In this document: one piece after another, positions 1,392 to 53,255 of the stretch | How positions within the stretch are numbered: the first letter of the stretch is position 1 | Layout: each line of letters starts with the position of its first letter | Position numbers and translations under genes: made by a program | Assembly (NCBI GenBank): GCA_002791545.1 | Contig: PFXG01000068.1 | Location: 1 to 64,000 of the forward strand | DNA: 64,000 nt | From: Zetaproteobacteria bacterium CG_4_9_14_3_um_filter_49_83 | GTDB taxonomy: Bacteria > Pseudomonadota > Zetaproteobacteria > Mariprofundales > Mariprofundaceae | Reading direction: 5' to 3' | The notes under the pieces: generated by a model | The model's input: the letters and a program-made list of their open reading frames with translations, nothing else | Told to the model about the DNA's origin: nothing | Databases searched by the model: none

Positions 1392-3392
1392 CTACAGTAA
1401 CCCTTCATCATCCAGCGGCAGCACCGCTTCAATGCGTACCCCACCCCCGACGATGTGCGTCATCGAAAACACTCCCCCCAGCGCATGTACCCGCTCGCGC
1501 ATACCGATAATACCCAGGCCGTCTGACTTGTCTTGCTCCACCAGACCCTTGCCGTTATCGACGATCTCGACCCGCACCCGGCCAGCATCACCATCATGCG
1601 GCGACTGGCAATTCACATCCACCATGATGTGGTCAGCCTTGCCATGGCGCAGAGCGTTGGTTAATCCCTCCTGAACGAGCCTGTAGATGGCGATGGCGTG
1701 CAATTCATCCAAAGGCTCAAGCGGCCCGTCAATCTGCAGTATGCAATCAATACCTTCACACTGATTCCACTGATCGATCAGCTCAGTCAGGGCGGCAGCA
1801 AGACCCAGTGTATCCAGGGTGGCCGGCCGCAGCCTGAACAGCGTGTCGTGGCTGGCGTCAAACATTATGCGGATGTCCCGGATGATGTCCTGTGCTGCGG
1901 TACGCAGTGCGGCTTTTTTGGTGTGTCTGGCGATGAACTCCGCTCGCGCCTCGGTGCCGGTCAGCAATTGCCCCAGTTCATCATGCAGATCACGGGCGAG
2001 CAGTCGTCGCTCCTCTTCCTGCACCTGCATCAGCTGCCGCATCAAACTACGATTATCCTGCAACAAGCCATCCCGTATTATCTCGGCCTGTTTGCGCTTG
2101 GTGATATCCAGCGTGGTCCCAATAGACTTTAGCGGGGTGCCATCTGCTGCATAGGTGGTCTTACATCGCTCATTCACCCATTTGATAGTTCCATCAGGCA
2201 ACAGCAGGCGATGCTCAATATCGTAAACGCACCTGTGTTTGACCGAATTCAAATACGCCTCATTCACAAACTCGTAATCATCAGGGTGGACTATTTCCAG
2301 AAAGGTTTCATAAGTGTTAGGCACCCCGGGCTCTTGCCCAAAAATGCGATAGTTCTCATCCGACCAGAGCAGTTCATCTTTTACCAGATCCAACGTCCAG
2401 TGCCCAAGCTGAGCAATTTTTTGTGCTTCGGCATGGTTCGACTGGCTCTCCAACAGTTTGGCTTCTGCATGCTTTCGCGCAGAGATATCACGCACAATGC
2501 CTTCGATCGCAATCGGCTGCCGATGCTTATCCAGGATCAACCTGCTGCTGATTGATGCAAACCGGCCCGAGCCGTCTTTATGCACCATCAGCAGCTCAAA
2601 GTCGTTCACCTCGCCGTGTTGCCGGAGCTGCTCCATTAACGCACGGCGCTGGACAGGGTCCGCATAGAAATCAGTCGCCAGCCTGCCAATCAACTCTTCG
2701 GGCCGGTAGCCGGTCGATCTCAGACACGAGGGGCTGAGCAATTGAAAGCGCCCCTCCAGGTCGGTTTTGTAATAGATATCCGGCATGCTTTCAAATACGG
2801 CGCGATACTGATCCACGTCCTGCTGCAGCATTTGCTCGGCATCTTTTTGCAGGCTTATATCAGAAACAGCCATCAGTAATGACTCTGCATCCATGTTCAA
2901 ATCATGAGCCGCCATCGTCTCCAGGCGTGCCCAGAATGTACTGCCATCTGCTCGCATCAGCCATAATTGAGCAACCTTCTGTAAACCAGAGCCCACCAGC
3001 TTCCTGTGGTGGAGGTAATAGATATCCTGATCTTCTTCAAAAACAAATTTCGAGAATGGCTTATGCAGCAGGCAGCAGGCCTCCACGCCGAGCATGCGGG
3101 CTATGGCCAGATTGGCCCTCTCTATCATGAGCCCGGGGCTCAGGCTGATATAACCAACCGGGGAAAAGTTATAGAGATTGGCATATTGCTCACGGGCATC
3201 GGTTAATTCTATTTCTGCCTTGCGCAACGCTTCGTTCTGCATTTCCAGTTCAATCTGGTGTGTTCGCAATTCATGGATCATTGCCAGGCAATCATCCGGG
3301 GAGAGATCGCTCAGTGCTTCGTTTTCTGAGGCGAGACCTGCCTCAGCTCGCCTGCGCAATTGATCCGATGTCTGGTTGTACCTTCTTCCCAT
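1392..3392 (-). CDS. PAS-PAS-PAS sensor histidine kinase (HisKA_3/NarX type)
   Basis: A cytoplasmic sensor kinase with three PAS domains in series (roughly residues 70-180, 190-310 and 325-440). These are followed by a HisKA_3 dimerisation/phospho-acceptor segment (LLARDLHDELGQLL) and a HATPase domain with N box (EGLTNALRHGKA) and G boxes (VDNGKGL, GLGIIGMRERV). No membrane segment is evident, so the ligand is probably internal (redox, gas or metabolite). I chose the ATG at 3392 over the upstream in-frame start at 3455. It has GGAGAGG six bases upstream, and its N-terminus (RRRAEAGLASENEAL) lines up with that of the HD-GYP protein at 27386-30418, which shares the same N-terminal module. It precedes its likely cognate regulator by two bases. 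Confidence 0.92.
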   Translation of the reverse strand: MGRRYNQTSDQLRRRAEAGLASENEALSDLSPDDCLAMIHELRTHQIELEMQNEALRKAEIELTDAREQYANLYNFSPVGYISLSPGLMIERANLAIARMLGVEACCLLHKPFSKFVFEEDQDIYYLHHRKLVGSGLQKVAQLWLMRADGSTFWARLETMAAHDLNMDAESLLMAVSDISLQKDAEQMLQQDVDQYRAVFESMPDIYYKTDLEGRFQLLSPSCLRSTGYRPEELIGRLATDFYADPVQRRALMEQLRQHGEVNDFELLMVHKDGSGRFASISSRLILDKHRQPIAIEGIVRDISARKHAEAKLLESQSNHAEAQKIAQLGHWTLDLVKDELLWSDENYRIFGQEPGVPNTYETFLEIVHPDDYEFVNEAYLNSVKHRCVYDIEHRLLLPDGTIKWVNERCKTTYAADGTPLKSIGTTLDITKRKQAEIIRDGLLQDNRSLMRQLMQVQEEERRLLARDLHDELGQLLTGTEARAEFIARHTKKAALRTAAQDIIRDIRIMFDASHDTLFRLRPATLDTLGLAAALTELIDQWNQCEGIDCILQIDGPLEPLDELHAIAIYRLVQEGLTNALRHGKADHIMVDVNCQSPHDGDAGRVRVEIVDNGKGLVEQDKSDGLGIIGMRERVHALGGVFSMTHIVGGGVRIEAVLPLDDEGLL

Positions 3393-3655
3393 GCGGTTTT
3401 CCTCTCCCGAAAAGAGGAGTCCTGCCCCTCTCTGCCCTGTGGTCGGTGCAAACACCGTTCGATCTCAATGAGCCGAGAACCCTTCAGCCTTAACATAGAT
3501 AACTTTTCTCTGAATTGCCATCGCATAAATAGCAGCGGAGAGCTGCTTCACATCACCCCAGGATTTTGAGGCGAGCCTACATTCACCCTCTGAGGGTCGG
3601 GCTATACAATGGGGGCCAGCTACTCTTTCCTAATTTCTTATCAGTCTGTTTCCGG

Positions 3656-4451
3656 CTAAGCCCAGATGGTCGAAACAGCAACTTTGGAACTTGATCTACC
3701 GTTACAGGCGTTGCCGTGTATGTTCAGCAAGCGATCATACTCCTTGTTTACCACTGTGTAGCATTCACATGCCCGCTTTTCCAGCTTAGGACGATCCAGT
3801 ACAGTAATGTGACCGCGTGTACAGGTGATGGCTCCATCCGTTTTCAATCTGCCGACCGCCACGGTCACCCCTTCCCGACGAAAGCCCAGCATGCTGGCGA
3901 TCAACTCTTGCGTTATGTGTATTTGGTTGTCAGGTAAACGATCCAGGGTCATCAACAACCACCGGCATAATTGCTGATTCAGTGAATGGTACCGATTGCA
4001 TACTGCTGTTTGCGACATCTGAGTCATCAGCGCCTGCGTGAAACGAAGTAATGTGTATTGGAATTGACCACCTAGCATGAATTCCCGTTTTAGTGCATTC
4101 GACTTTAGCCGGTAGCCATAGCCTTCGCTTAGCACAACTGCCCTGCTCGTTGTTCTTTCACCCCCCCCTCCCCATAAACAGGGAGAAGCCCACCAAGCCT
4201 TCGTTGCCGGTGATTGCAATCTCAGCTGATGCCCCGTTTTCCATCTCATAGAGTAACGAGACGATACTGGTGGCAGGAAAATAGAGATATGACTGATGAT
4301 CACCTGATTCGTATAGCGACCACCCCAGTGGCATGGGAATGAGTTCCAGATCGGGCAATAGACGGCGGTAAATCATATCCGGCAGACTTGCCAGAAGGTA
4401 GTTCTGCTTCGGGTTCGCATAAGAAGCGCCTGATATATCAATGTTTCTCAT
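3656..4451 (-). pseudogene. Crp/Fnr-family regulator interrupted by a frameshift in a G8 tract
   Basis: Two overlapping frames together make one Crp/Fnr-type regulator. The N-terminal cNMP-binding-like half is read from 4451 (NYLLASLPDMIYRRLLPDLE, then FPATSIVSLLYEM and GNEGLVGFSLFMG). The C-terminal half continues one frame over (TTSRAVVLSEGYGYRLKS, then HTH residues HITQELIASMLGFRREGVTV). The change of frame falls exactly in GGGGAGGGGGGGG (minus strand, 4161-4173). With eight G the upper frame ends at TGA straight after the tract; with seven G the reading frame continues. The gene is therefore either decayed, mis-sequenced or phase-variable. The ATG at 4451 is preceded by GAGAGGG ten bases upstream. 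The family normally acts as a homodimeric transcription regulator; the ligand is unknown. Confidence 0.8.
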
Positions 4452-4583
4452 ACGCACCAATCCCTCTCGACCATATTATGAATGGTAGTAACCTGAATCC
4501 TGTACCGATATAGGAATAATTCTGATTTTTTGTATCACGCTTGTGCCCGTGGATGAATCATCTGGAACACCCGATGAAGGGGA

Positions 4584-4629
4584 AGTCCGGGTCAGTAGTC
4601 CGGGTCAGCTTCATTCTAGTCCGGGTCAG
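4584..4629. repeat. Three direct copies of a 12-bp repeat, possible IS-end remnant
   Basis: The 12-mer agtccgggtcag occurs at 4584-4595, 4597-4608 and 4618-4629. Two of the copies extend to a common agctt-like flank. Read on the minus strand, the block begins near TGTAAATGTCAAAGC and carries repeated GCTGACCCGGAC units. That layout resembles the multiple transposase-binding repeats at the ends of IS21-like elements. The neighbouring ParB-like relic would fit such an element, but no transposase sequence remains. The IS link is inference; the repeats themselves are plain to see. Confidence 0.6.
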
Positions 4630-4685
4630 CTTTGACATTTACACATTTGCTGGATCAAATTCGTGATGTCCAGTCATCGCGGGCA

Positions 4686-4738
4686 GGTCTATCATTGTAC
4701 CAACTTGAATTTACCAAATAATGATACAATGATAGACC
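4686..4738. repeat. Perfect 14-bp inverted repeat around a 25-base spacer
   Basis: ggtctatcattgta (4686-4699) is the exact reverse complement of tacaatgatagacc (4725-4738). The element sits precisely where the ParB-like relic loses its similarity (4745). It could be a tiny MITE-like insertion or the stem of a small structured RNA. I see no clear target-site duplication and no T-run, so a simple terminator is less likely. Confidence 0.6.
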
Positions 4739-4744
4739 CCTCTT

Positions 4745-4945
4745 ACCGATGCGCAGATAGCCGTCCATCAGGATGTAACGATGATCTGCGCCACCGATGG
4801 CGGCCACCGGCGTGAGCTGACCACTTTGATCCATCGAATGCATCATGGCGTTCACCATCTGTCTGGTTTGCAGCCGTGTGGATGCAAAGCGGAGTTCCAG
4901 GCAGTGGAGGTCGGTTTCTATGCTGTGATCTGATTCCCTGTTCAT
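4745..4945 (-). pseudogene. ParB-like (Spo0J) N-terminal domain, truncated relic
   Basis: From the ATG at 4945 the sequence encodes a short ParB-like domain: LELRFASTRLQTRQMVNAM, then DQSGQLTPVAAIGGADHRYI and LMDGYLRIG. The last of these matches the usual hydrophobic-DGYLR segment of ParB/Srx-fold proteins. Similarity ends at 4745, where the 14-bp inverted repeat begins, and the frame then wanders through unrelated sequence to a stop at 4655. Such stand-alone ParB domains are known to accompany IS21-like istA/istB pairs, which would agree with the IS-end-like repeats at 4584-4629. Nothing remains of a transposase. I regard it as non-functional. Confidence 0.55.
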
Positions 4946-4989
4946 GCGCAAAAATCTGGAACCGGAAAAATAAATAGCTATCAAGTCCT

Positions 4990-5140
4990 ATCTTTGCAAG
5001 ATGGGTGATTTTCAGGGGCCGCGTGCGTATCCTGTTGATACTACGTCTATATTTACAACCACACGTCCATCTTTGCAAGATCGGAATATTCTCAGCCATA
5101 AGCCATCTTCGCCCCGGTCGTCGGGATGCCATGAATACTG
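4990..5140. repeat. 13-bp direct repeat and a 59-bp second copy of the purL 3' end
   Basis: atctttgcaagat occurs at 4990-5002 and again at 5069-5081. The second copy abuts a 59-bp segment (5082-5140) that matches 5922-5980, inside the 3' end of purL, at 55 of 59 positions and in the same orientation. The segment starts and stops abruptly. It therefore looks like a partial duplication or a recombination scar about 840 bp from the source, not a gene. No open frame uses it convincingly. Confidence 0.75.
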
Positions 5141-5169
5141 CGAAACATGTCCTGCCCCAATGTCTCACT

Positions 5170-5565
5170 CTACAATTTCAGCGAACGGAGATATTGAATT
5201 GCATGGTAACACCTGATGATGCAGAGCAGACACAGCGCGCCTGAAATGGATGAGAAACCGAAAACGATCATTGCGTGGGTAATAAAAGCCAACAAGATCA
5301 ATAGCCCGAGCAGAAAAGCCTGAACCGTCATTTGTAAGGAAAAGTGTTCGCGTTGAAACTGATAAAGCATAAGCACCAACAGGTAAACTTGGTAGATCAA
5401 CAAGGCAGCCTTAACTACCACCATTACAAAAGCATCAAGAATATCTGTAAAATGAACATAACTGGTCCGGGAAATGCTGCCGGGAAGTTCAACGATGATA
5501 AAAATGAACAGGCTAAAGCAAAAGACGATAACCGCGCCGTAACATATCAGCGCAATGTGTTTCAT
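5170..5565 (-). CDS. Small multi-pass membrane protein, unknown function
   Basis: A 131-residue, strongly hydrophobic protein. It has about four predicted membrane spans: LICYGAVIVFCFSLFIFIIV near the N-terminus, then ALLIYQVYLLVLML, LLGLLILLAFITHAMIVFGF and GALCLLCIIRCY. A weak AAGGAA lies about 15 bases before the ATG. I do not recognise the family. It stands alone between the relic-rich region and purL, transcribed in the same direction as purL but separated from it by over 300 bases. The hydrophobic periodicity argues for a real protein; lack of a good ribosome-binding site keeps confidence moderate. Confidence 0.5.
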   Translation of the reverse strand: MKHIALICYGAVIVFCFSLFIFIIVELPGSISRTSYVHFTDILDAFVMVVVKAALLIYQVYLLVLMLYQFQREHFSLQMTVQAFLLGLLILLAFITHAMIVFGFSSISGALCLLCIIRCYHAIQYLRSLKL

Positions 5566-5739
5566 GTCGTTTGGCCCGTTTCCTTCAAATCAGAAGCGAC
5601 ATCTGGCGCAGCAAAGAAATAAACGCATCAAAATAAATCAGCCTGTCATGTCACTGATGCAACTCACCTGACCGAATGACAGTGCGTCTATCGCAGACAA
5701 CAGCTTGGGAAACTCGGGAAGGATGAAGGGAATCAACCT

Positions 5740-10964: not shown

Positions 10965-12116
10965 ATGCAATCAGGTTCATCACAACAAGGTCAGCTACAC
11001 TGGCATCAGGATGCTGCAGGTGTACTGCGCTTCAAAAGCTCCGGTAACTGGACCAAAGAGGGGCTTCTGGAGCTCAGCGGCAAGCTCCGGAAATGCTGCC
11101 GTGAGCACCGCGATATAAGCATTCAGTGGGATATGTCGGAAATCGGTGAGCTTGATTCGGCCGGCATGGTTCTTTTTATCCACTATTATGACCGACTCAT
11201 CGCAGCAAATTGCAGCATCGAACTGCTGGGCATGAAAGACGATCACCGAAAAATGTACGAACTGCTGCGCCGCTACACCAGCGGTGAAACCAACGAAAAA
11301 CCGGGCCTCACGTTGCACCTGCTCAAACCCTTTCAGGCAATTGGCCGGGCAAGTGTCGATATTGTAAAGGATGCCGCATCATTTCTGGCTTTTATTGGTG
11401 AAAGCTTTGTCAGCCTGCTCCAATCGCTGCGCCATCCCGGCACGATCCGTTTTGCTGCCATCGTGAAAAACATTGAAAATGCTGGCGTTCGGGCGATGCC
11501 GATTATTGCGCTGACCAGCTTTCTGATTGGTGTGGTTATTGCCTATCAGGGGGCGGTGCAACTTGAAAAGTTCGGTGCCAATATCTTTATCGTCGAAATG
11601 ATCGGCATCTCCATCACCCGCGAACTGGCACCGCTGATCACGGCCATTGTTGTTGCCGGTCGCACCGGCTCCTCGTTTACAGCGCAGATCGGCGTAATGA
11701 AAATAACCGAGGAAATCGATGCCATGCGCACCATGGGCTTTGATCCACACTGTTTTCTCGTGCATCCACGCATTATCGCATTGATGATCGTGCTACCGTT
11801 GCTGATCTTTTTTGCTGACCTTATCGGCATTGCCGCAGGCATGCTTATCGCCAATATCCATCTGCACCTTTCCTATGCCGAATTTATCAATCGCCTGCAG
11901 GATGTTCTGGAAATAAAACACGTCTGGATCGGCCTGATCAAGGGGCCCTTCTTTGCATGTCTGATTGCCATGGTCGGCTGTTACCGTGGTTTTCAAGTGT
12001 CGAAAAATACCGAGAGCATCGGTCAATACACCACCATCAGTGTGGTCAATGCGATTTTTCTGGTCATTGCCTGCGATGCCCTGTTCTCCGTACTGCTCAC
12101 CGAGCTTGGCATATGA
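10965..12116 (+). CDS. mlaE: Mla-type ABC transporter permease with fused STAS domain
   Basis: Inner-membrane permease of a phospholipid-transporting Mce/Mla system. Residues about 10-110 form a STAS domain (SIQWDMSEIGELDSAGMVLF), normally a separate MlaB protein. The rest is the MlaE permease, with the conserved GISITRELAPLITAIVVAGR and IGVMKITEEIDAMRTMGFDP coupling-helix region. The ATG at 10965 has GTAGG upstream. Its stop overlaps the MlaF start by four bases (ATGA), marking translational coupling. The STAS fusion explains the absence of a separate mlaB; mlaC is also absent here. Length (383) fits the fused form. Confidence 0.92.
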   Translation: MQSGSSQQGQLHWHQDAAGVLRFKSSGNWTKEGLLELSGKLRKCCREHRDISIQWDMSEIGELDSAGMVLFIHYYDRLIAANCSIELLGMKDDHRKMYELLRRYTSGETNEKPGLTLHLLKPFQAIGRASVDIVKDAASFLAFIGESFVSLLQSLRHPGTIRFAAIVKNIENAGVRAMPIIALTSFLIGVVIAYQGAVQLEKFGANIFIVEMIGISITRELAPLITAIVVAGRTGSSFTAQIGVMKITEEIDAMRTMGFDPHCFLVHPRIIALMIVLPLLIFFADLIGIAAGMLIANIHLHLSYAEFINRLQDVLEIKHVWIGLIKGPFFACLIAMVGCYRGFQVSKNTESIGQYTTISVVNAIFLVIACDALFSVLLTELGI

Positions 12117-12880
12117 GCAATCCGGCCATTGTCGTCTCCGACCTTGTCACCCGCTTTGGTGACCGGCTTATCCATGACGGTATCAGCTTGAGTATCCGGC
12201 ATGGCGAGATTTACGGGCTTCTGGGCGGCAGCGGCGCTGGCAAGTCCACCCTGCTCAAAGAGATGATCATGCTATTGCGCCCCGATGCCGGTGAAATCCG
12301 CATTCTTGATCATAACCTGTCCAGCATCAGCCGTGCCGATGCCTCCATGCTGCGGCAACACTGGGGTGTTCTTTTTCAGGGCGGCGCGCTCTACTCCTCG
12401 CTCACTGTTGCCGACAATATCGGCATCAAACTCAAGGAATATACCGGACTCCCGGAAAAACTGATTCGGGAGATTGTGCAGGTCAAAATCAATATGGTCG
12501 GATTACCGCCAGCAACGGCGGAGCTTTATCCGGCACAACTCAGTGGCGGCATGGTCAAACGTGCGGCGCTGGCACGGGCGCTGGCAATGGATCCGATGCT
12601 GCTGTTTCTTGATGAGCCGACCTCCGGGCTCGACCCGGTGGGCGCAGAGGCTTTTGATCATCTGATTCTGGAATTGCGCGACATCCTCGATCTGACTATT
12701 GTCATGGTTACCCACGACCTTGATTCCATCTGGACGATTGTCGACCGCCTCTCTGTGCTGGGTGATAAAAAGATTGTTGCCGAAGGAGCCCTGAACGACG
12801 TGATTAAATCCGAACATCCGATTATCCGGGAATTCTTCGGCGGTTCGCGTGGCCGCATACGGGGATGTAATGGAAAGTAG
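12113..12880 (+). CDS. mlaF: Mla-type ABC transporter ATP-binding subunit
   Basis: Cytoplasmic ATPase driving lipid movement through the MlaE permease. Walker A GGSGAGKSTLLKE, signature LSGGMVKRAALARALA and Walker B LLFLDEPTSGLDPVGA are intact, and the H-loop is in IVMVTHDLDSIW. The start at 12113 overlaps the mlaE stop by four bases; longer upstream frames lie inside mlaE. The 255-residue length is usual. The 3' end overlaps the start of mlaD by 11 bases. Confidence 0.94.
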   Translation: MSNPAIVVSDLVTRFGDRLIHDGISLSIRHGEIYGLLGGSGAGKSTLLKEMIMLLRPDAGEIRILDHNLSSISRADASMLRQHWGVLFQGGALYSSLTVADNIGIKLKEYTGLPEKLIREIVQVKINMVGLPPATAELYPAQLSGGMVKRAALARALAMDPMLLFLDEPTSGLDPVGAEAFDHLILELRDILDLTIVMVTHDLDSIWTIVDRLSVLGDKKIVAEGALNDVIKSEHPIIREFFGGSRGRIRGCNGK

Positions 12881-13763
12881 AATCAATTATACAATTGTCG
12901 GCATCTTCGTTGTGCTGCTGCTTACCGGAATTATTATGTTTGCATTCTGGCTCGGCAAATACGGTGAAGAGCAGCAATATGATCGTTATTACGTCTACAT
13001 CACCGAGTCCGTGGCCGGTCTGAGCACCGACACGTCGGTGAAGTTTAATGGCGTTAATGTCGGTTCCGTTGAGCAAATCAACATCAATATGAACAATCCC
13101 GAAGAGGTGGAATTGCTGCTGAAGGTCAAACACGGCACGCCGGTTAAAACCGACACCATCGCCAAACTCAAATCCTTCGGCATTACCGGACTGAGCTTTA
13201 TCGAACTGACAGGCAGCACTAAAGATGCCCCGCTGCTGCATGCTTCCGACAGTACCATTCCGATCATTCAAACCGGTCCGTCCACCTTCACTCAATTCGA
13301 TAAATCACTCAGGGAACTCATCGCCAAATCGGTCGGTTCACTGGAGAAGTTCGACCAGCTACTCAGTGATGAAAACCTGCAAACAGTCAGTTCGCTGCTC
13401 TCCGACACCAATCTGGTGGTCAAAGATGTGCGCGCGCAGATGCAGGAATTCCGCAAAGTACTGGATAACGGCGTCATTATGGAACAACGCATGACCCAGG
13501 CATTCACCTCGGTTGAACAGGCTTCGGACAGCGTGAAGAAAATGGCCGAACGCTTTGAAAAGAATTATGCCAATGTCGGTCAGGATATGCGACAGGATGT
13601 CCGGCAGAGTCTGGTTTCCTTTAATCGGCTGATTAACGAGCTAGATACACTGGCTGGCGATATGCAACGCGTCGTGCGGGCCACCGAGGCCAGCCCAAGC
13701 GATCTGCTGTTCAAACAAACTTCGCCAAGGCCCGGCCCCGGCGAGGAGGGATACCATGAATAA
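12870..13763 (+). CDS. mlaD: MlaD/Mce-domain substrate-binding protein
   Basis: A periplasm-facing lipid-binding protein. One N-terminal membrane anchor (NYTIVGIFVVLLLTGIIMFA) is followed by a single Mce domain (about residues 35-120; GLSTDTSVKFNGVNVGSVEQ, then GITGLSFIELTG) and a long helical C-terminal segment of about 170 residues that likely forms part of a tunnel or bridge. Family hexamers carry lipid between membranes. I start it at 12870, inside the mlaF 3' end, because MESRINYT begins the natural anchor. It overlaps the lipoprotein gene by eight bases. Confidence 0.92.
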   Translation: MESRINYTIVGIFVVLLLTGIIMFAFWLGKYGEEQQYDRYYVYITESVAGLSTDTSVKFNGVNVGSVEQININMNNPEEVELLLKVKHGTPVKTDTIAKLKSFGITGLSFIELTGSTKDAPLLHASDSTIPIIQTGPSTFTQFDKSLRELIAKSVGSLEKFDQLLSDENLQTVSSLLSDTNLVVKDVRAQMQEFRKVLDNGVIMEQRMTQAFTSVEQASDSVKKMAERFEKNYANVGQDMRQDVRQSLVSFNRLINELDTLAGDMQRVVRATEASPSDLLFKQTSPRPGPGEEGYHE

Positions 13764-48082: not shown

Positions 48083-48158
48083 GCGGGTATAGCTCAGTTG
48101 GTAGAGCGCGACCTTGCCAAGGTCGAGGTCACCGGTTCGAACCCGGTTACCCGCTCCA
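48083..48158 (+). tRNA. tRNA-Gly (anticodon GCC)
   Basis: A 76-base cloverleaf. GCGGGTA pairs with TACCCGC in the acceptor stem. The D arm is AGCTCAGTTGGTAGAGC. The anticodon stem-loop GACCTTGCCAAGGTC gives GCC, and the T arm holds GGTTCGAACC. CCA is encoded. Confidence 0.95.
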
Positions 48159-48162
48159 TATT

Positions 48163-48184
48163 AAAGGGGCCTTCGGGCCCCTTT
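48163..48184 (+). terminator. Strong UUCG-loop terminator between tRNA-Gly and tRNA-Cys
   Basis: aaaggggcc and ggccccttt form a nine-base stem around a ttcg tetraloop, followed by a run of T. It lies four bases after tRNA-Gly and 23 before tRNA-Cys. Confidence 0.85.
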
Positions 48185-48207
48185 TTTTAATTAGTGTTTT
48201 AACAGAT

Positions 48208-48282
48208 GGCAGGGTGGCTCAGTGGTACGGCGGAGGACTGCAAATCCTTTATTCGCGAGTTCGATTCTCGCCCCTGCCTCCA
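48208..48282 (+). tRNA. tRNA-Cys (anticodon GCA)
   Basis: A 75-base cloverleaf. GGCAGGG pairs with CCCTGCC. The D arm is GGCTCAGTGGTACGGC. The anticodon loop CTGCAAA gives GCA, and the T arm contains GAGTTCGATTCTC. CCA is encoded. The upstream 23 bases are too short for an ordinary promoter, so it depends on read-through of the terminator or on a start within tRNA-Gly. Confidence 0.95.
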
Positions 48283-48308
48283 TTATTGATTGATCACTGC
48301 GTGCAACT

Positions 48309-48397
48309 GCCGGGATGGCGAAATTGGTAGACGCAAGGGACTTAAAATCCCTCGAAGAGTAATCTTCGTGCCGGTTCGACTCCGGCTCCCGGCACCA
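48309..48397 (+). tRNA. tRNA-Leu (anticodon TAA)
   Basis: An 89-base tRNA with a long variable arm. GCCGGGA pairs with TCCCGGC. The anticodon loop CTTAAAA gives UAA. The variable arm runs through CGAAGAGTAATCTTCG, and the T arm holds CGGTTCGACTCCG. CCA is encoded. A run of T follows directly. Confidence 0.95.
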
Positions 48398-48485
48398 TTT
48401 TTTTTATCAATCAATGAATCATATTAAATTCAATATCAATCGCACGACAGGTCGTAAATTGTAGTCAGGCGCTTCGGCTGATTGC

Positions 48486-48508
48486 GCCCCCCCCCCCCCA
48501 AAAAAAAA
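48486..48508. repeat. Long C-tract followed by an A-tract
   Basis: About thirteen C are followed directly by about nine A in the gap between tRNA-Leu and the sigma-54 activator gene. Such homopolymers are unstable; the exact lengths may vary in the population or be sequencing artefacts. No gene is near enough for an obvious phase-variation effect. Confidence 0.6.
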
Positions 48509-48610: not shown

Positions 48611-50110
48611 CTATCCTTTGTCCATTCCATTGTTTTGAATATTCAAAGCTTTCATACGATAAGTGAAGGTCGAGGGCTTGATACCGATAAGAGCAGCGGC
48701 ACCGTTAGGACCTGAAATTTTTCCGTCGGAGAGCAGCAGTGCTTTGAGCATGCTCTCCCGTTCCAGCTGGCGCAAAGCCGTTTCGTTTAACAATTCAGGC
48801 AGTTTACCAGCGGATGCCTTCTTTTCACTCAGGCCAGCGGCATTCTGCAGAGCCAGGTCGAGGCGTAGCTTGTTACCTTTCGATAAAATAACAGCTCGCT
48901 CGATAACATTTTTCAACTCCCTGATATTTCCAGGCCAGTTGTGGCTTTCCAGAGTCAATAGTTGCTGCTTGCTAAGCCCCAGCATTTCCCGCCCCATCTC
49001 CCGGCAGCTTTTGGTTAACAGATTGGCGGCCAGCATGGCAATATCATCTTTTCGCTGCCGCAGCGGTGGCACTTCAATCGGAAATACACTGAGGCGGTAG
49101 TAAAGGTCTTCGCGGAAGCAGCCGAGCTTAATCTCTTCCTGTAAATCACGATTGGTCGCGGCGATGATGCGAACATCAGCACGAATCGTCCTGTCATCAC
49201 CCACTCGTTCGAACTCTTTCTCCTGCAAAAACCGCAACAACTTGCTTTGCAGGGCCATCGGTATCTCGCCCACCTCATCGAGGAAAAGCGTACCACCATT
49301 GGCCAGACTGATACGACCAATCCGATCTTTATGAGCGCCGGTATAAGCACCTCGCACATGACCAAAAAATTCGCTCTCAAACAGCTCTTTCGGAATTGAG
49401 GCGCAATTCACCTTAACCAGCGGTTTTTCCTTGCGCGGACTGATCCGGTGAATGGCCCGGGCAATCATTTCCTTACCTACGCCCGACTCCCCATGAATAA
49501 GTACATTGGCAGGCGTTGTGGCTACAGCTTCTACCTGAGCCAATGTCCTTACCAGAGCGCGACTGTTGCCGATAATCTCTCCAAAATCGGAAGAAACATT
49601 AATCTCGTCTCTGAGATAGTCGCGTTCAAGTTCAATCTGTTCCTTCAGCGACTTGATCTCGTCAAAAGCCTGTTGCCGCTGGCGTTCCAGCTCTTTGCGC
49701 TGGGAGATATCGCGAAACACAACCACGGCCCCGTTAAGTATACCATTCTGCCAGATGGGGGTGCTGGTGTATTCGACCGGAATCGCCGTGCCATCTGTAT
49801 GCCAGAACACCTCGCTGTCGACATGGTGAATTTCCCCATCCTGAATTGCTTTATAGATCGGGCACTCGTGTCGGGGGTAGTGCGAACCGTCGGCATGAGA
49901 GTGGTGGTGGAACTCGTGAAGAGGTATATCTACGACATCTTCGTTTCGCAGCCCGAGGATTTTCATACCCGCTTCGTTGATAAATGTAGTTTTGCCATCC
50001 TTATCCAGGCCGTAAATACCCTCACCGGCACAGGCAAGCAGCGTTTGGTAGGTGGATTGAAGCTGAATGAGTTGCTTTTGTGTTGCATCAGTTGGGTGAA
50101 GATCATTCAT
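48611..50110 (-). CDS. PAS-domain sigma-54-dependent transcriptional activator
   Basis: An enhancer-binding protein of about 499 residues. An N-terminal PAS domain (about 20-140) carries a His/Cys-rich stretch (FHHHSHADGSHYPRHECPIY). A coiled linker leads to the AAA+ domain (about 180-400) with Walker A IHGESGVGKEMIARAI, the sigma-54 contact loop as GAYTGA (usually GAFTGA), Walker B GGTLFLDEVGEI and the Arg finger region FREDLYYRLSVF. The C-terminal Fis-type HTH (GAAALIGIKPSTFTYRMKAL) binds DNA. I prefer the ATG at 50110 over TTG at 50119. It diverges from the operon starting at 50278, whose -24/-12 promoter it very probably controls. Confidence 0.93.
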   Translation of the reverse strand: MNDLHPTDATQKQLIQLQSTYQTLLACAGEGIYGLDKDGKTTFINEAGMKILGLRNEDVVDIPLHEFHHHSHADGSHYPRHECPIYKAIQDGEIHHVDSEVFWHTDGTAIPVEYTSTPIWQNGILNGAVVVFRDISQRKELERQRQQAFDEIKSLKEQIELERDYLRDEINVSSDFGEIIGNSRALVRTLAQVEAVATTPANVLIHGESGVGKEMIARAIHRISPRKEKPLVKVNCASIPKELFESEFFGHVRGAYTGAHKDRIGRISLANGGTLFLDEVGEIPMALQSKLLRFLQEKEFERVGDDRTIRADVRIIAATNRDLQEEIKLGCFREDLYYRLSVFPIEVPPLRQRKDDIAMLAANLLTKSCREMGREMLGLSKQQLLTLESHNWPGNIRELKNVIERAVILSKGNKLRLDLALQNAAGLSEKKASAGKLPELLNETALRQLERESMLKALLLSDGKISGPNGAAALIGIKPSTFTYRMKALNIQNNGMDKG

Positions 50111-50120
50111 GACTGGCAAG

Positions 50121-50177
50121 TCTCAACTTTTTGCGAGTTCTTGTCACAAGTTTCTGCGATTCTCAAATTTCTGCAAG
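50121..50177. promoter_or_regulatory. Three 17-bp direct repeats, candidate activator binding sites
   Basis: tctcaactttttgcgag (50121-50137), tcacaagtttctgcgat (50144-50160) and tctcaaatttctgcaag (50161-50177) follow a common TCTCAAnTTTCTGCGAG pattern. They lie about 45-100 bases upstream of the -24 element and directly ahead of the activator gene. That is where an enhancer for the operon and an autoregulatory site would be expected. Starts are spaced 23 and 17 bases. Confidence 0.55.
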
Positions 50178-50220
50178 CATAAAAGTTACGTAAGTAGCCA
50201 GTAAATAAAGGCTTCATTTT

Positions 50221-50236
50221 TGGCATGGCGATTGCT
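50221..50236 (+). promoter_or_regulatory. Sigma-54 (-24/-12) promoter
   Basis: TGGCATGGCGATTGCT matches the TGGCACG-N4-TTGCT consensus at all but one conserved position. The GG and GC doublets have the required ten bases between them. Transcription should start near 50248, about 30 bases before the ATG at 50278. The adjacent divergent gene encodes a sigma-54 activator. Confidence 0.88.
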
Positions 50237-50277
50237 TCTACACAAAGCACAAAGATAATTAATGGAGGGTACCCACA

Positions 50278-51315
50278 ATGGCAACAGACTCGATTTCCCG
50301 CATCAAAGAAGATCTGACGACTTCAGCTATAGACTCACCCATCGCCCTGAAGACTTTGGCGCTCTGGCTGGGCTGGGCAGCAATATCGCTGTTGATGCTT
50401 GGAAAACTTTATCACAAGGCAAACATCGATGCCTTTCTATTGCATGACCGCACCATGATGACATCAATCATTATCAGTGTGTTTGCCTTTGCTGTGCTGG
50501 TAAGTTTTCACCATGCCGTGGTACTGACCAAAGAATGGCTTCGTGCATCCAGCCTGAAACAAGCCATCAGCAAACATGGCCTGGCGGGCATGGAGCCGTT
50601 ACGCCGTCAAAAGCGCAATGTGGAACGCTTCATCTTTTCGATTCAGGCCATTCTCAAACGAGATGGCCATCTCGATCTGGAAAGCCTGGTACTGGTTGAA
50701 TTTTCTTCTCAACATCGCCGCAGCCAATTTGTCAGCCTGATTGGTAATCTGCTCATTACCCTGGGACTTATCGGAACCGTACTGGGTATGACCATGATTC
50801 TGGGCGGACTCAATGGCGCAATAAGCGCCGTGGGCGTAGATCAGGCGTTATTGATGACGAGTCTGGCCGACGCCATGTCCGGCATGGGTATCGCTTTTTA
50901 TACTACGCTGATGGGTGCGGTGCTTGGCGGCATTCTATTGCGAGTATTCTCCTGGATTACCGATACGTCGGTGCATGCGCTGCAAGATTTCATGCTAAGA
51001 ACCTGCCTTGTTTACGGTTCCGCAGAACTGAATCCGGGGACCGCACGCGAACTACAAGTCGTCGACGCCAATCTGGCCAGAGTACAGAAACGGGTGGATC
51101 TGGTCGCCACAGCCTGCGAAGCCAGCGGACGTGAAGTTGGCAAGCTGGTGGAGAAGATGACCGAACTGCAGTCGATTTCCCAAACTCTGGCTGCCAACGA
51201 GAGTATGTATCAGGTGGCCGTGCAGCATGCGAAATATTGGCGCGGTGTCAGACAGTCGCGCCTGTTCGGACAATTTTTCCGGCCAACCAAAAGCAGCGAA
51301 TCCGAGGCGCACTGA
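50278..51315 (+). CDS. MotA/TolQ/ExbB-like proton-channel protein
   Basis: A 345-residue inner-membrane protein. Two N-terminal spans (ALWLGWAAISLLMLG; IIISVFAFAVLVSF) and a cytoplasmic stretch are followed by the MotA/ExbB core with two long spans (GNLLITLGLIGTVLGMTMIL; GIAFYTTLMGAVLGGILLRV). A C-terminal helical region of about 100 residues extends into the cytoplasm. Such proteins form proton-driven rotary or pulling stators with a single-span partner, here probably the next gene. GGAGG lies ten bases before the ATG. It is the first gene behind the sigma-54 promoter and shares one base with the following start (TGATG). Confidence 0.85.
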   Translation: MATDSISRIKEDLTTSAIDSPIALKTLALWLGWAAISLLMLGKLYHKANIDAFLLHDRTMMTSIIISVFAFAVLVSFHHAVVLTKEWLRASSLKQAISKHGLAGMEPLRRQKRNVERFIFSIQAILKRDGHLDLESLVLVEFSSQHRRSQFVSLIGNLLITLGLIGTVLGMTMILGGLNGAISAVGVDQALLMTSLADAMSGMGIAFYTTLMGAVLGGILLRVFSWITDTSVHALQDFMLRTCLVYGSAELNPGTARELQVVDANLARVQKRVDLVATACEASGREVGKLVEKMTELQSISQTLAANESMYQVAVQHAKYWRGVRQSRLFGQFFRPTKSSESEAH

Positions 51316-52172
51316 TGTACGCCAGACAAAAAGCATCCCCTGATAATTTCTACGAGATCTTTTCAGATATGGCTTTGCTGATGCTGGCGGCATTTATCTT
51401 CCTGTTCGCCGTGATTTTAATCAGCTCCCGCCTGACTGGTGAGGGCACTTCGGATAGTGCTCGCATCAATAGCAATATGAAGCAGCAACTTGCAGTACAG
51501 CTTGAAGAGGTTCAACAGGCTAAAGCACTGCTGGAAATCGAAACTCAGCAGGGCATGGCCCATCTGCAGAAGCAGTTACAGATCATGGCTCAGGAGAATG
51601 CCCGATTAAAGCAAGAGGCCGAACGTGTGTTCGAAGATCATTCCGATCGCATATTAGACACAGCCGGCCTGGGACATGGGAAAGGCAAAAAAGATTTCGA
51701 CATGTTCGTTGAAGGCCTGAAAAAAATCCCCGGAACAGAATTGCATCTGGTTGTTGATGCGACCGGCTCTATGCATGGGGTTACTACTTTTCTGGTTCCG
51801 GTGCTACGGGTTATTGCCGAGCGTTCTGGCAAACACCTGTCCGCTTTGAGCTGGTATGCCGACAATAAAGTTGGCACCTATGAAAGCAGCATGAACGAAA
51901 TGTTCGACCATCTGTTGCAGGAGGCGCCCTTCATCGGTGCAGATGAAACCGTTGGCCATGCTTTCACCGAAATTGCCAAAAACTCCCCTGTACCGAGTGC
52001 TTACCTGCTGATCGGTGATGAGCCACCCACAGACACAGTCCACTACCACGCTATTCCAGCGCCGGTATTCACCTTACCGCTAGGTGTCGATAACGGTTCT
52101 ACGTTACGCTTCGCCTACAGAAAGCTGGCCGAAGAGACGGGTGGTCATACACTGGCTCTAAAATTTCAGTAA
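51315..52172 (+). CDS. Single-span coiled-coil protein with von Willebrand A-like domain
   Basis: A 285-residue protein. A short cytoplasmic N-terminus (MYARQKASPDNFYEIFSDMA) leads to one span (LLMLAAFIFLFAVILI) and a coiled coil (about 55-105; LAVQLEEVQQAKALLEIETQ). A VWA-like domain (about 125-285) has a MIDAS-like start (LHLVVDATGSMHGVTTFLVP) and a later IGDEPPTD. The topology is that of MotB/ExbD-type stator partners, but the periplasmic OmpA-like peptidoglycan-binding domain is replaced by a VWA domain. It overlaps the ExbB-like gene by one base, so the two should assemble together. Confidence 0.8.
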   Translation: MYARQKASPDNFYEIFSDMALLMLAAFIFLFAVILISSRLTGEGTSDSARINSNMKQQLAVQLEEVQQAKALLEIETQQGMAHLQKQLQIMAQENARLKQEAERVFEDHSDRILDTAGLGHGKGKKDFDMFVEGLKKIPGTELHLVVDATGSMHGVTTFLVPVLRVIAERSGKHLSALSWYADNKVGTYESSMNEMFDHLLQEAPFIGADETVGHAFTEIAKNSPVPSAYLLIGDEPPTDTVHYHAIPAPVFTLPLGVDNGSTLRFAYRKLAEETGGHTLALKFQ

Positions 52173-52182
52173 GGGGAATATT

Positions 52183-52620
52183 ATGATTTCTAATGCATTT
52201 GTACGATGCAATCGCTGGGTGGCTGTTGGCCTGTGCTTTGCTCTTCCGATAGCGCTTGGTGCTTGCTCTTATGCGGCAAATGAGCAGCCGGCGGCGGATC
52301 AGCTTGTGCAACGTCTTCATCAGAATGTCAAAACCCAGGATTTTGAAGCTATGACGGAACTCTATGACGAGAGCTTTTTTAAAGCGCAAGACCGACAAGC
52401 CTGGCAAAAGAAATGGCAAGGGTTTGCGCAGCAATTTGGCACACTGGAGGAAATTCGTCCGATCTTTTCCCAAAGAGATGCCCGGTATCGCGGGGATTAC
52501 TACATCTATGGTTTTAAGCTCGTTTTTGCCCGAGGCTCATTGCACGAAACAATCTCCGTATTCAAAGGCATTGAAGGCGGCAGTCTTTCAATTATGGGCC
52601 ATGTCGTTGAGCCGGGCTGA
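52183..52620 (+). CDS. Lipoprotein of the sigma-54 operon, unknown function
   Basis: A 145-residue lipoprotein with signal peptide and lipobox ALPIALGACS (Cys at about residue 28). The remainder resembles a small NTF2/DUF4019-like alpha-beta fold (VQRLHQNVKTQDFEAMTELY; YYIYGFKLVFARGSLHETIS), but I cannot assign a family firmly. GGGG lies eight bases before the ATG. It lies ten bases after the VWA gene, within the same operon, and is a likely outer- or inner-membrane-anchored partner of the ExbB/VWA pair. Confidence 0.7.
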   Translation: MISNAFVRCNRWVAVGLCFALPIALGACSYAANEQPAADQLVQRLHQNVKTQDFEAMTELYDESFFKAQDRQAWQKKWQGFAQQFGTLEEIRPIFSQRDARYRGDYYIYGFKLVFARGSLHETISVFKGIEGGSLSIMGHVVEPG

Positions 52621-52693
52621 ATGCTTAGGTGAATATTGCAATTCAACATCCCGAAACTGGAAACCAATGTAAACAGAACAAAGAGAGGTGATA

Positions 52694-53255
52694 ATGAACA
52701 ACGAAGCTTTAAATGATCAAGGACAGGAGCTGGAACAAGAAGTAGCGCCTTATCAGGACTGGGCCCCCATGTGGCTGCGCGGGATGATGGCTTTCACCGC
52801 CGGATGTTTCTTGCTGGATGTAGGCTTGCGTTTATTACATATTCGAATCGAGTGGTTTATCGGTATGGACACATTCAGCTTCTCATGGGTGTTGGCCATG
52901 TTTCCGCTACCTGTACTGGCGGGTGTGGTCATCGGCCTGATCTATGGGTTCGGTGGTAAATATCTTGCCCATTTTCCACCCGTAATCGGTATTGAGCTGG
53001 TTGTATTACGAAAGTATGTCCCACCTGCCACTACCCGATGGCGCGCATCTTCTGCCATGGCCTTTGTGGGCATTTTTCCTGATCCTGCACATGGAGTTTT
53101 GTGCCCTTGGCGCTGTCTTCGGCGAGGTGTTCCATCATCGCTTAAGGGGATGGGATAACAGAATTAAATATAAGGGCGACTCAGACCATCAATGTGATGA
53201 GGATGAACTGATGCAGCAAAAGGCACATTCTAATCAGCAGACTGCCCGACAATAA
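52694..53255 (+). pseudogene. Four-span membrane protein of the sigma-54 operon, frameshifted
   Basis: Two overlapping frames make one plausible protein of about 186 residues. The first (from ATG 52694, AGAGAGGTG upstream) covers WLRGMMAFTAGCFLLDVGL and FPLPVLAGVVIGLIYGFGGK. The second continues from about 52992 with SWLYYESMSHLPLPDG, PLWAFFLILHMEFCALGAVF and GEVFHHRLRGW, ending in a charged tail. A single extra base near 52990-52995 explains the break. The hydrophobic pattern and shared direction strongly suggest one gene. It could be a recent inactivating mutation or a sequencing error. Family unknown. Confidence 0.65.

Follow-up and report, generated by a model that had tools for sequence, protein, structure and literature searches.

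What would a MotA/TolQ/ExbB-type proton-channel subunit do beside a single-span membrane protein that ends in a von Willebrand factor A (VWA) domain? The question is raised by a locus at positions 48611-53255 of a 64,000-nucleotide stretch of DNA, here called the window, which is part of contig C67 in the 2.68 Mb genome of Zetaproteobacteria bacterium CG_4_9_14_3_um_filter_49_83. The genomes nearest to it in a named collection are all zetaproteobacterial. The locus carries a sigma-54 activator gene and, divergently from it, genes for the channel subunit (MOT), the VWA protein (VWA), a lipoprotein (LIP), and a multi-span membrane protein (MEM). A sequence-only reading had taken the activator and the four genes together as an undescribed proton-driven device acting across the envelope. 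In the present analysis, it is the MOT-VWA pair that emerges as the recurrent element, and the pair, together with LIP and MEM, is linked to the cluster of a variant cbb3-type oxidase elsewhere in the genome, a connection to which that reading did not extend.

The channel subunit and its VWA partner

MOT (50278-51315, + strand) matches PF01618 with an E value of 1.8e-7 and a score of 31.4 bits, above the cut-off of 22.9, and thus belongs to the channel family; a cytoplasmic coiled-coil tail is attached to the channel part. In the motifs of the third and fourth transmembrane helices, T161, T167, T209, and T210 are invariant in all 28 aligned members, and the region of T161/T167 and T209/T210 corresponds to the threonine ring of ExbB, TolQ, and MotA. 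The VWA gene (51315-52172, + strand) begins within the MOT stop codon (TGATG), and its product consists of a MotB-type N-terminal transmembrane helix, a coiled coil, and a C-terminal VWA domain with a metal-ion-dependent adhesion site (MIDAS). The helix, FSDMALLMLAAFIFLFA, is the single membrane span of the protein and contains Asp18, invariant in 30 of 30 members—the arrangement of a MotB, ExbD, or TolR partner—and MotB_plug is detected in all 30, each time weakly and under the curated cut-off. Basic residues lie ahead of the helix, so that by the positive-inside rule the rest of the protein is probably periplasmic.

The VWA domain was assigned from conserved residues and structure comparison, with no Pfam VWA match in any of the 30 members. 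The MIDAS residues (D148-x-T150-x-S152, T212, and D235) are invariant in all 30 sequences, and in the AlphaFold2 model (predicted local distance difference test score, 80) they lie at the elements expected of the VWA fold. The top Foldseek matches of the model were VWA/MIDAS domains, namely those of CLCA1, MDN1-MIDAS, Ro60, NorD of NorQD, and VWF A2, and the PDB matches at E<=0.001 were VWA-containing molecules or complexes in 11 of 11 cases. On this predicted model, the C-terminal domain is a true VWA fold with a complete MIDAS. The OmpA-like or ExbD/TolR periplasmic domain by which MotB, ExbD, and TolR partners are recognized was not found in VWA by Pfam, and no ExbD-, TolR-, or MotB-like gene was present among the typed neighbors of the pair. 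The sequence-only reading had surmised exactly this, that the second protein is not an ordinary MotB or ExbD and that a channel works with a single-span MIDAS partner, and the invariant residues, the fold, and the constant adjacency of the two genes bear it out. Neither Pfam, NCBIfam, nor PADLOC names the VWA protein, and searches of PDB sequences with the MOT and VWA profiles returned chance coiled-coil matches or weak MotA matches and nothing else. Overall, the motor architecture of MOT-VWA is well supported.

Conservation and genomic setting of the pair

Relatives of MOT-VWA were found in 43 genomes of a sample of 78 from the order, representing 13 of 18 genera, and the approximately 45 loci examined are all from Zetaproteobacteria. 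In a wider search of 399 genomes of the phylum, neither profile detected a family member outside this class; the sole extra-class match (channel profile, E 8e-11, genome G320) is a MotA-like gene beside a long coiled-coil MotB-like gene and was not accepted as a member of the family. MOT directly precedes VWA at every locus long enough to hold both. In Mariprofundus ferrooxydans PV-1, two copies of the pair (L011:6958-8804 and L012:6958-8804) share 99.6% identity over a stretch that coincides with the two genes, as would be left by a recent duplication or by gene conversion; the identity is confined to MOT and VWA, and the pair is therefore the conserved unit. No relative was found in plasmid, phage, or viral collections, so a mobile or phage origin is not seen.

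The larger assembly proposed by the sequence-only reading did not hold. The complete four-gene set, like its combination with the activator, occurs at the window locus only, and a conserved four-gene operon was accordingly rejected; of the expected conservation of the neighborhood, the constant adjacency of MOT and VWA is what stands. No PAS/sigma-54 activator was found beside the pair at other loci, and the window's activator is the only AAA+ ATPase among the typed neighbors. Of the three VWA genes in this genome, the diverged one is that of the window, which has a longer coiled coil and a regulator to itself. The sigma-54 operon of the window is thus one diverged paralogue of a real, class-restricted family.

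Two other gene settings recur around the pair. The phosphoglycerate mutase gene gpmI lies directly upstream of MOT at L005, L009, L013, L021, L024, and L192, including one of the other copies in the window's own genome. Genes for an Rrf2 regulator, a bacterial globin, and a ferredoxin-reductase-like protein are found near the pair at L005, L007, L012-L015, L017, L018, and L020, suggesting O2- or NO-related regulation.

Association with a variant cbb3-type oxidase

The variant oxidase cluster is a second cluster of the cbb3 type and is highly conserved. It carries genes for a heme-copper oxidase subunit resembling CcoN (COX1, E 2e-80), for CcoO-like and FixP-N-like proteins, for cytochromes c, and for three further proteins, one thioredoxin-like, one formylglycine-enzyme-like, and one a short second COX1-like protein. 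Its CcoN-like subunit shares approximately 31% identity with the standard CcoN encoded in the same genome; as read from the sequence, it keeps an HH pair and, upstream, a Tyr, in a pattern that resembles the cbb3 center. Two forms of cbb3 oxidase, falling into proximal and distal subtrees, have been described in Zetaproteobacteria (McAllister et al., PMC7029218), and the variant oxidase is probably the published "distal" form. In one cluster (L103), a 169-residue protein resembling the C-terminal part of COX1 lies beside a second cytochrome c and a thioredoxin-like protein (11597-13699), and formylglycine-enzyme-like and fused MFS/spermidine-synthase-like proteins (1409-5726) are conserved cluster members.

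In the 78 genomes, the pair and the variant cluster occur together in 44 and are both lacking in 30; four genomes have the cluster only and none has the pair only (Fisher's exact test, 1.3e-17). In these counts, G041 is scored for the pair by its MOT gene only, which lies at a contig edge, and G007, G041, and G066 are taken as cluster-positive on the basis of MEM and LIP. In an rpoB tree, all five independent contrasts agree with the association and none opposes it (p 0.0625), or four when G009 is left out. The rpoB gene of G009 (L184) groups within genus g5 and its other genes match g3; its rpoB contig is probably mis-binned. The pair shows no association with the standard CcoN (p 0.49).

Nor is the pair associated with fliM (29/15 vs 25/9, p 0.62), a result that bears on the idea that MOT-VWA serves flagellar motility or twisted-stalk formation, as a stator or as an accessory. 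The gene set common to stalk formers includes flagellar and cbb3 genes (PMC8250860), and PV-1, with its two copies of the pair, is a stalk former. Against this, 15 genomes with the pair, the window's own among them, have no detectable fliM, and VWA has no peptidoglycan-binding OmpA domain by Pfam. The flagellar stator was rejected for want of co-occurrence with FliM; the link to stalk formation, with the pair absent from the main text of PMC8250860, was not adopted. Taken together, a role of either kind is very improbable.

An anti-phage motor of the Zorya type has even less in its favor. The channel and plug regions do match ZorA and ZorB profiles weakly (E about 1e-6 to 1e-3), but at 20 vs 500 and 19 vs 100 bits the scores fall far under the cut-offs that NCBIfam sets for ZorA. 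Zorya systems are recognized by ZorA, ZorB with an OmpA domain, and ZorC/D or ZorE; here, no ZorC/ZorD or ZorE-like gene was found among the typed neighbors. Furthermore, the distribution follows the oxidase—44 of 48 genomes with the variant cluster have the pair, as against none of the 30 without it—and the searches of mobile elements described above were negative. Defense of this kind is regarded as an extremely remote explanation.

The same co-occurrence would suit a gated proton leak or a proton-coupled sensor that, by means of the conserved Asp/Thr proton path, trims the proton-motive force or signals the state of the envelope while the high-affinity oxidase runs, with no mechanical output. 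Such a device would leave the coiled-coil arm unexplained, as well as the invariant MIDAS, which implies ligand binding, and it is considered improbable.

Gene adjacency provides a line of evidence separate from co-occurrence. A CcoG-like paralogue of a cluster gene (TIGR02745, E 1e-30 to 1e-33, under the cut-off) lies directly upstream of MOT in at least three other genomes, at L008/L193 (G062), L011 (PV-1), L022, and L195 (G065), and a MEM paralogue directly follows VWA at L193 (G062) and L191 (G065); in the window, MEM comes after LIP. The MEM and LIP homologues, whose phyletic profile is nearly that of VWA, lie approximately 8-10 kb apart within the variant oxidase cluster in most genomes. 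The window's LIP is 30% identical to the LIP of its own genome's oxidase cluster, and the two parts of its interrupted MEM gene are 46% (part 1) and 42% (part 2, the C-terminal part) identical to the MEM of that cluster. Given both co-occurrence and linkage, as expected of an accessory factor of the variant oxidase, the link between MOT-VWA and this oxidase branch is moderately supported.

The lipoprotein is also where the main alternative arises, in which MOT-VWA is a TolQRA-like force transducer: the VWA arm would extend to a partner in the outer membrane or peptidoglycan, possibly the NTF2-like LIP, and proton flow would be used to exert a pull on the outer membrane while iron is oxidized microaerobically; the oxidase link would then reflect shared ecology and co-regulation. 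LIP (52183-52620, + strand) is encoded directly downstream of VWA in the window, after a gap of 10 bases, and the same reading has been offered for the TPH-vWA proteins (PMC12204202). As the sequence-only reading had it, LIP is a lipoprotein, with the lipobox LGAC, whose Cys28 is invariant in the alignment of the lipoprotein family (A3). It weakly resembles DUF3887/DUF4019, and its predicted model (87.5 on the same confidence scale) gave NTF2/cystatin-like folds in Foldseek (best E 1.4e-3); such a fold is of a binding type, and LIP may serve the VWA domain as ligand or companion. However, LIP adjoins the pair in the window only, its commonest place being the oxidase cluster, and the cluster genes that adjoin the pair elsewhere, CcoG-like and MEM, are of the inner-membrane type. 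The force transducer is thus judged possible, if somewhat unlikely.

A proposed motor for the oxidase branch

The reading preferred here is that MOT-VWA is a motor driven by the proton-motive force that grips a partner in the variant oxidase branch, most likely aiding assembly, metal loading, or upkeep; its probability is put at roughly 0.42. It builds on the gene content, the conserved residues, the VWA fold of the predicted model, the conservation of the pair, and its co-occurrence and adjacency with the oxidase cluster. By analogy with the MotA/ExbB/TolQ class, five MOT subunits would surround two VWA helices, and proton flow through a pore formed by the MOT threonines and Asp18 of VWA would set the periplasmic coiled-coil arm turning or pull on it. 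The MIDAS at the end of the arm would then grip an envelope partner of the variant oxidase branch, and the motor would help to assemble, metal-load, or maintain the oxidase in a manner mechanically like that of NorQ/NorD. It is from this analogy that we infer the assembly mechanism; the stoichiometry, rotation, periplasmic topology, and partner are likewise proposed.

Several points weigh against this reading. Most MOT-VWA loci adjoin gpmI or the globin/Rrf2/reductase group rather than oxidase genes. The sister genomes G059 and G061 (94-95% complete) have the oxidase cluster but lack the pair, so the cluster can do without the motor. In the window's genome, the operon of the standard cbb3 oxidase has ordinary CcoG/H/I-like genes and no need of such a motor. 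The independent contrasts are few (sign test, p 0.06-0.13), and other genes may share the phyletic pattern, including other genes specific to stalk formers (PMC8250860).

A more specific version, in which the motor is a proton-powered metal-insertion or remodeling chaperone for a heme-copper oxidase, working through a MotA-type rotary channel as the membrane counterpart of NorQD, is unlikely. In that version, the oxidase branch responsible for the proton gradient would itself depend on a proton-driven VWA motor for its maturation. If the motor does mature an oxidase, metalloenzyme assembly would have proton flow as a source of energy besides ATP. The 2025 description of TolQ-like motors with VWA arms gave them no function, and the tie to the oxidase gives one family a testable function. 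The parts are present in cultured M. ferrooxydans PV-1, with its two copies, in a class of iron oxidizers.

The putative sigma-54-controlled locus of the window

The sequence-only reading described a divergent PAS-type sigma-54 activator and a near-consensus -24/-12 promoter, and both features were recovered. The activator gene (48611-50119, - strand; start codon TTG, or ATG at 50110) encodes PAS, sigma-54 AAA+, and Fis-type helix-turn-helix domains (Pfam Sigma54_activat, 6.4e-72; PAS_9, 4.3e-12; HTH_8, 2e-4) and is the probable regulator of the MOT-VWA-LIP-MEM operon. The promoter-like site, TGGCATGGCGATTGCT (50221-50236, + strand), lies 41 bp upstream of the MOT ATG; its pattern has this one match in the whole 64 kb, against 0.21 expected, and the site scores highest of both strands. 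Two rpoN genes, both above the family cut-off, are present in the genome (L188 and L189). At the other loci scanned, the region ahead of MOT holds no sigma-54 site comparable to that of the window, with a best score of 13 as against 16.

The four tightly packed genes of the sequence-only reading were confirmed for MOT, VWA, and LIP; MEM is not one open reading frame. Its N-terminal part (part 1, 52688-53158, + strand) loses the frame after approximately 52990, and its C-terminal part (part 2, 52992-53255, + strand) continues in a different frame. The counterpart in L008 (8916-9413) is a single intact protein of 165 residues that covers both parts and is 47% identical to part 2; the window MEM is therefore frameshifted, in the 52985-53040 region, possibly by a sequencing error or by gene decay. 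At 48487-48508, shortly after three tRNA-like genes (about 48084-48398), 13 C followed by 9 A form a possible assembly artifact or phase-variable tract.

Comparison with known systems

MOT-VWA shares with MotA/MotB, ExbB/ExbD, and TolQ/TolR a PF01618 channel and a plug helix with an Asp, and differs from them in its output domain, which is VWA here and OmpA-like or ExbD/TolR there. Zorya ZorA/ZorB likewise form a motor derived from MotA/MotB, with a cytoplasmic tail on the channel subunit; MOT-VWA, in contrast, is without an OmpA-like domain, ZorC/D/E, or signs of mobility or of a defense context.

A rotating VWA domain has been proposed to open cNOR, a member of the heme-copper superfamily, for metal insertion (PMC13036017, 2026). 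In NorQ/NorD (PMC13036017, PMC9976466), as proposed here, a motor moves a MIDAS VWA domain and the target is a heme-copper-superfamily enzyme; NorD is also among the fold matches of the VWA model. However, NorQD uses ATP and a MoxR AAA+ ring, whereas MOT-VWA would use a membrane ion channel with the VWA domain outside, leaving the VWA fold alone in common. The MoxR AAA+ partner that characterizes chaperones of the NorQD type was not found among the typed neighbors of the pair. MOT-VWA may act on a heme-copper oxidase from the opposite side of the membrane to NorQD, with proton power.

The closest relatives in architecture are the TolQ-like and TPH-vWA pairs of the Idiomarina type, whose function is unknown (PMC12204202; Mol Biol Evol 2025), and the kind of device is therefore not undescribed, as the sequence-only reading had supposed. 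There, as here, a TolQ-like gene is tightly paired with a gene for a single-span VWA protein whose helix carries a conserved proton-binding Asp, without a TolR, ExbD, or MotB gene. The published family, however, consists mostly of heterologous VWA pairs from many Proteobacteria and Verrucomicrobia, whereas MOT-VWA has one VWA gene per locus, is restricted to Zetaproteobacteria in the samples searched, and is linked to the cbb3-type oxidase. The two VWA genes are said to occur "predominantly" (PMC12204202), so this feature, which MOT-VWA does not show, is not strictly defining; it is on the published description that MOT-VWA is set apart from the Idiomarina TPH-vWA. Thus, the TolQ and VWA architecture is already known, and what is new is a separate, single-VWA, class-restricted family associated with a variant oxidase.

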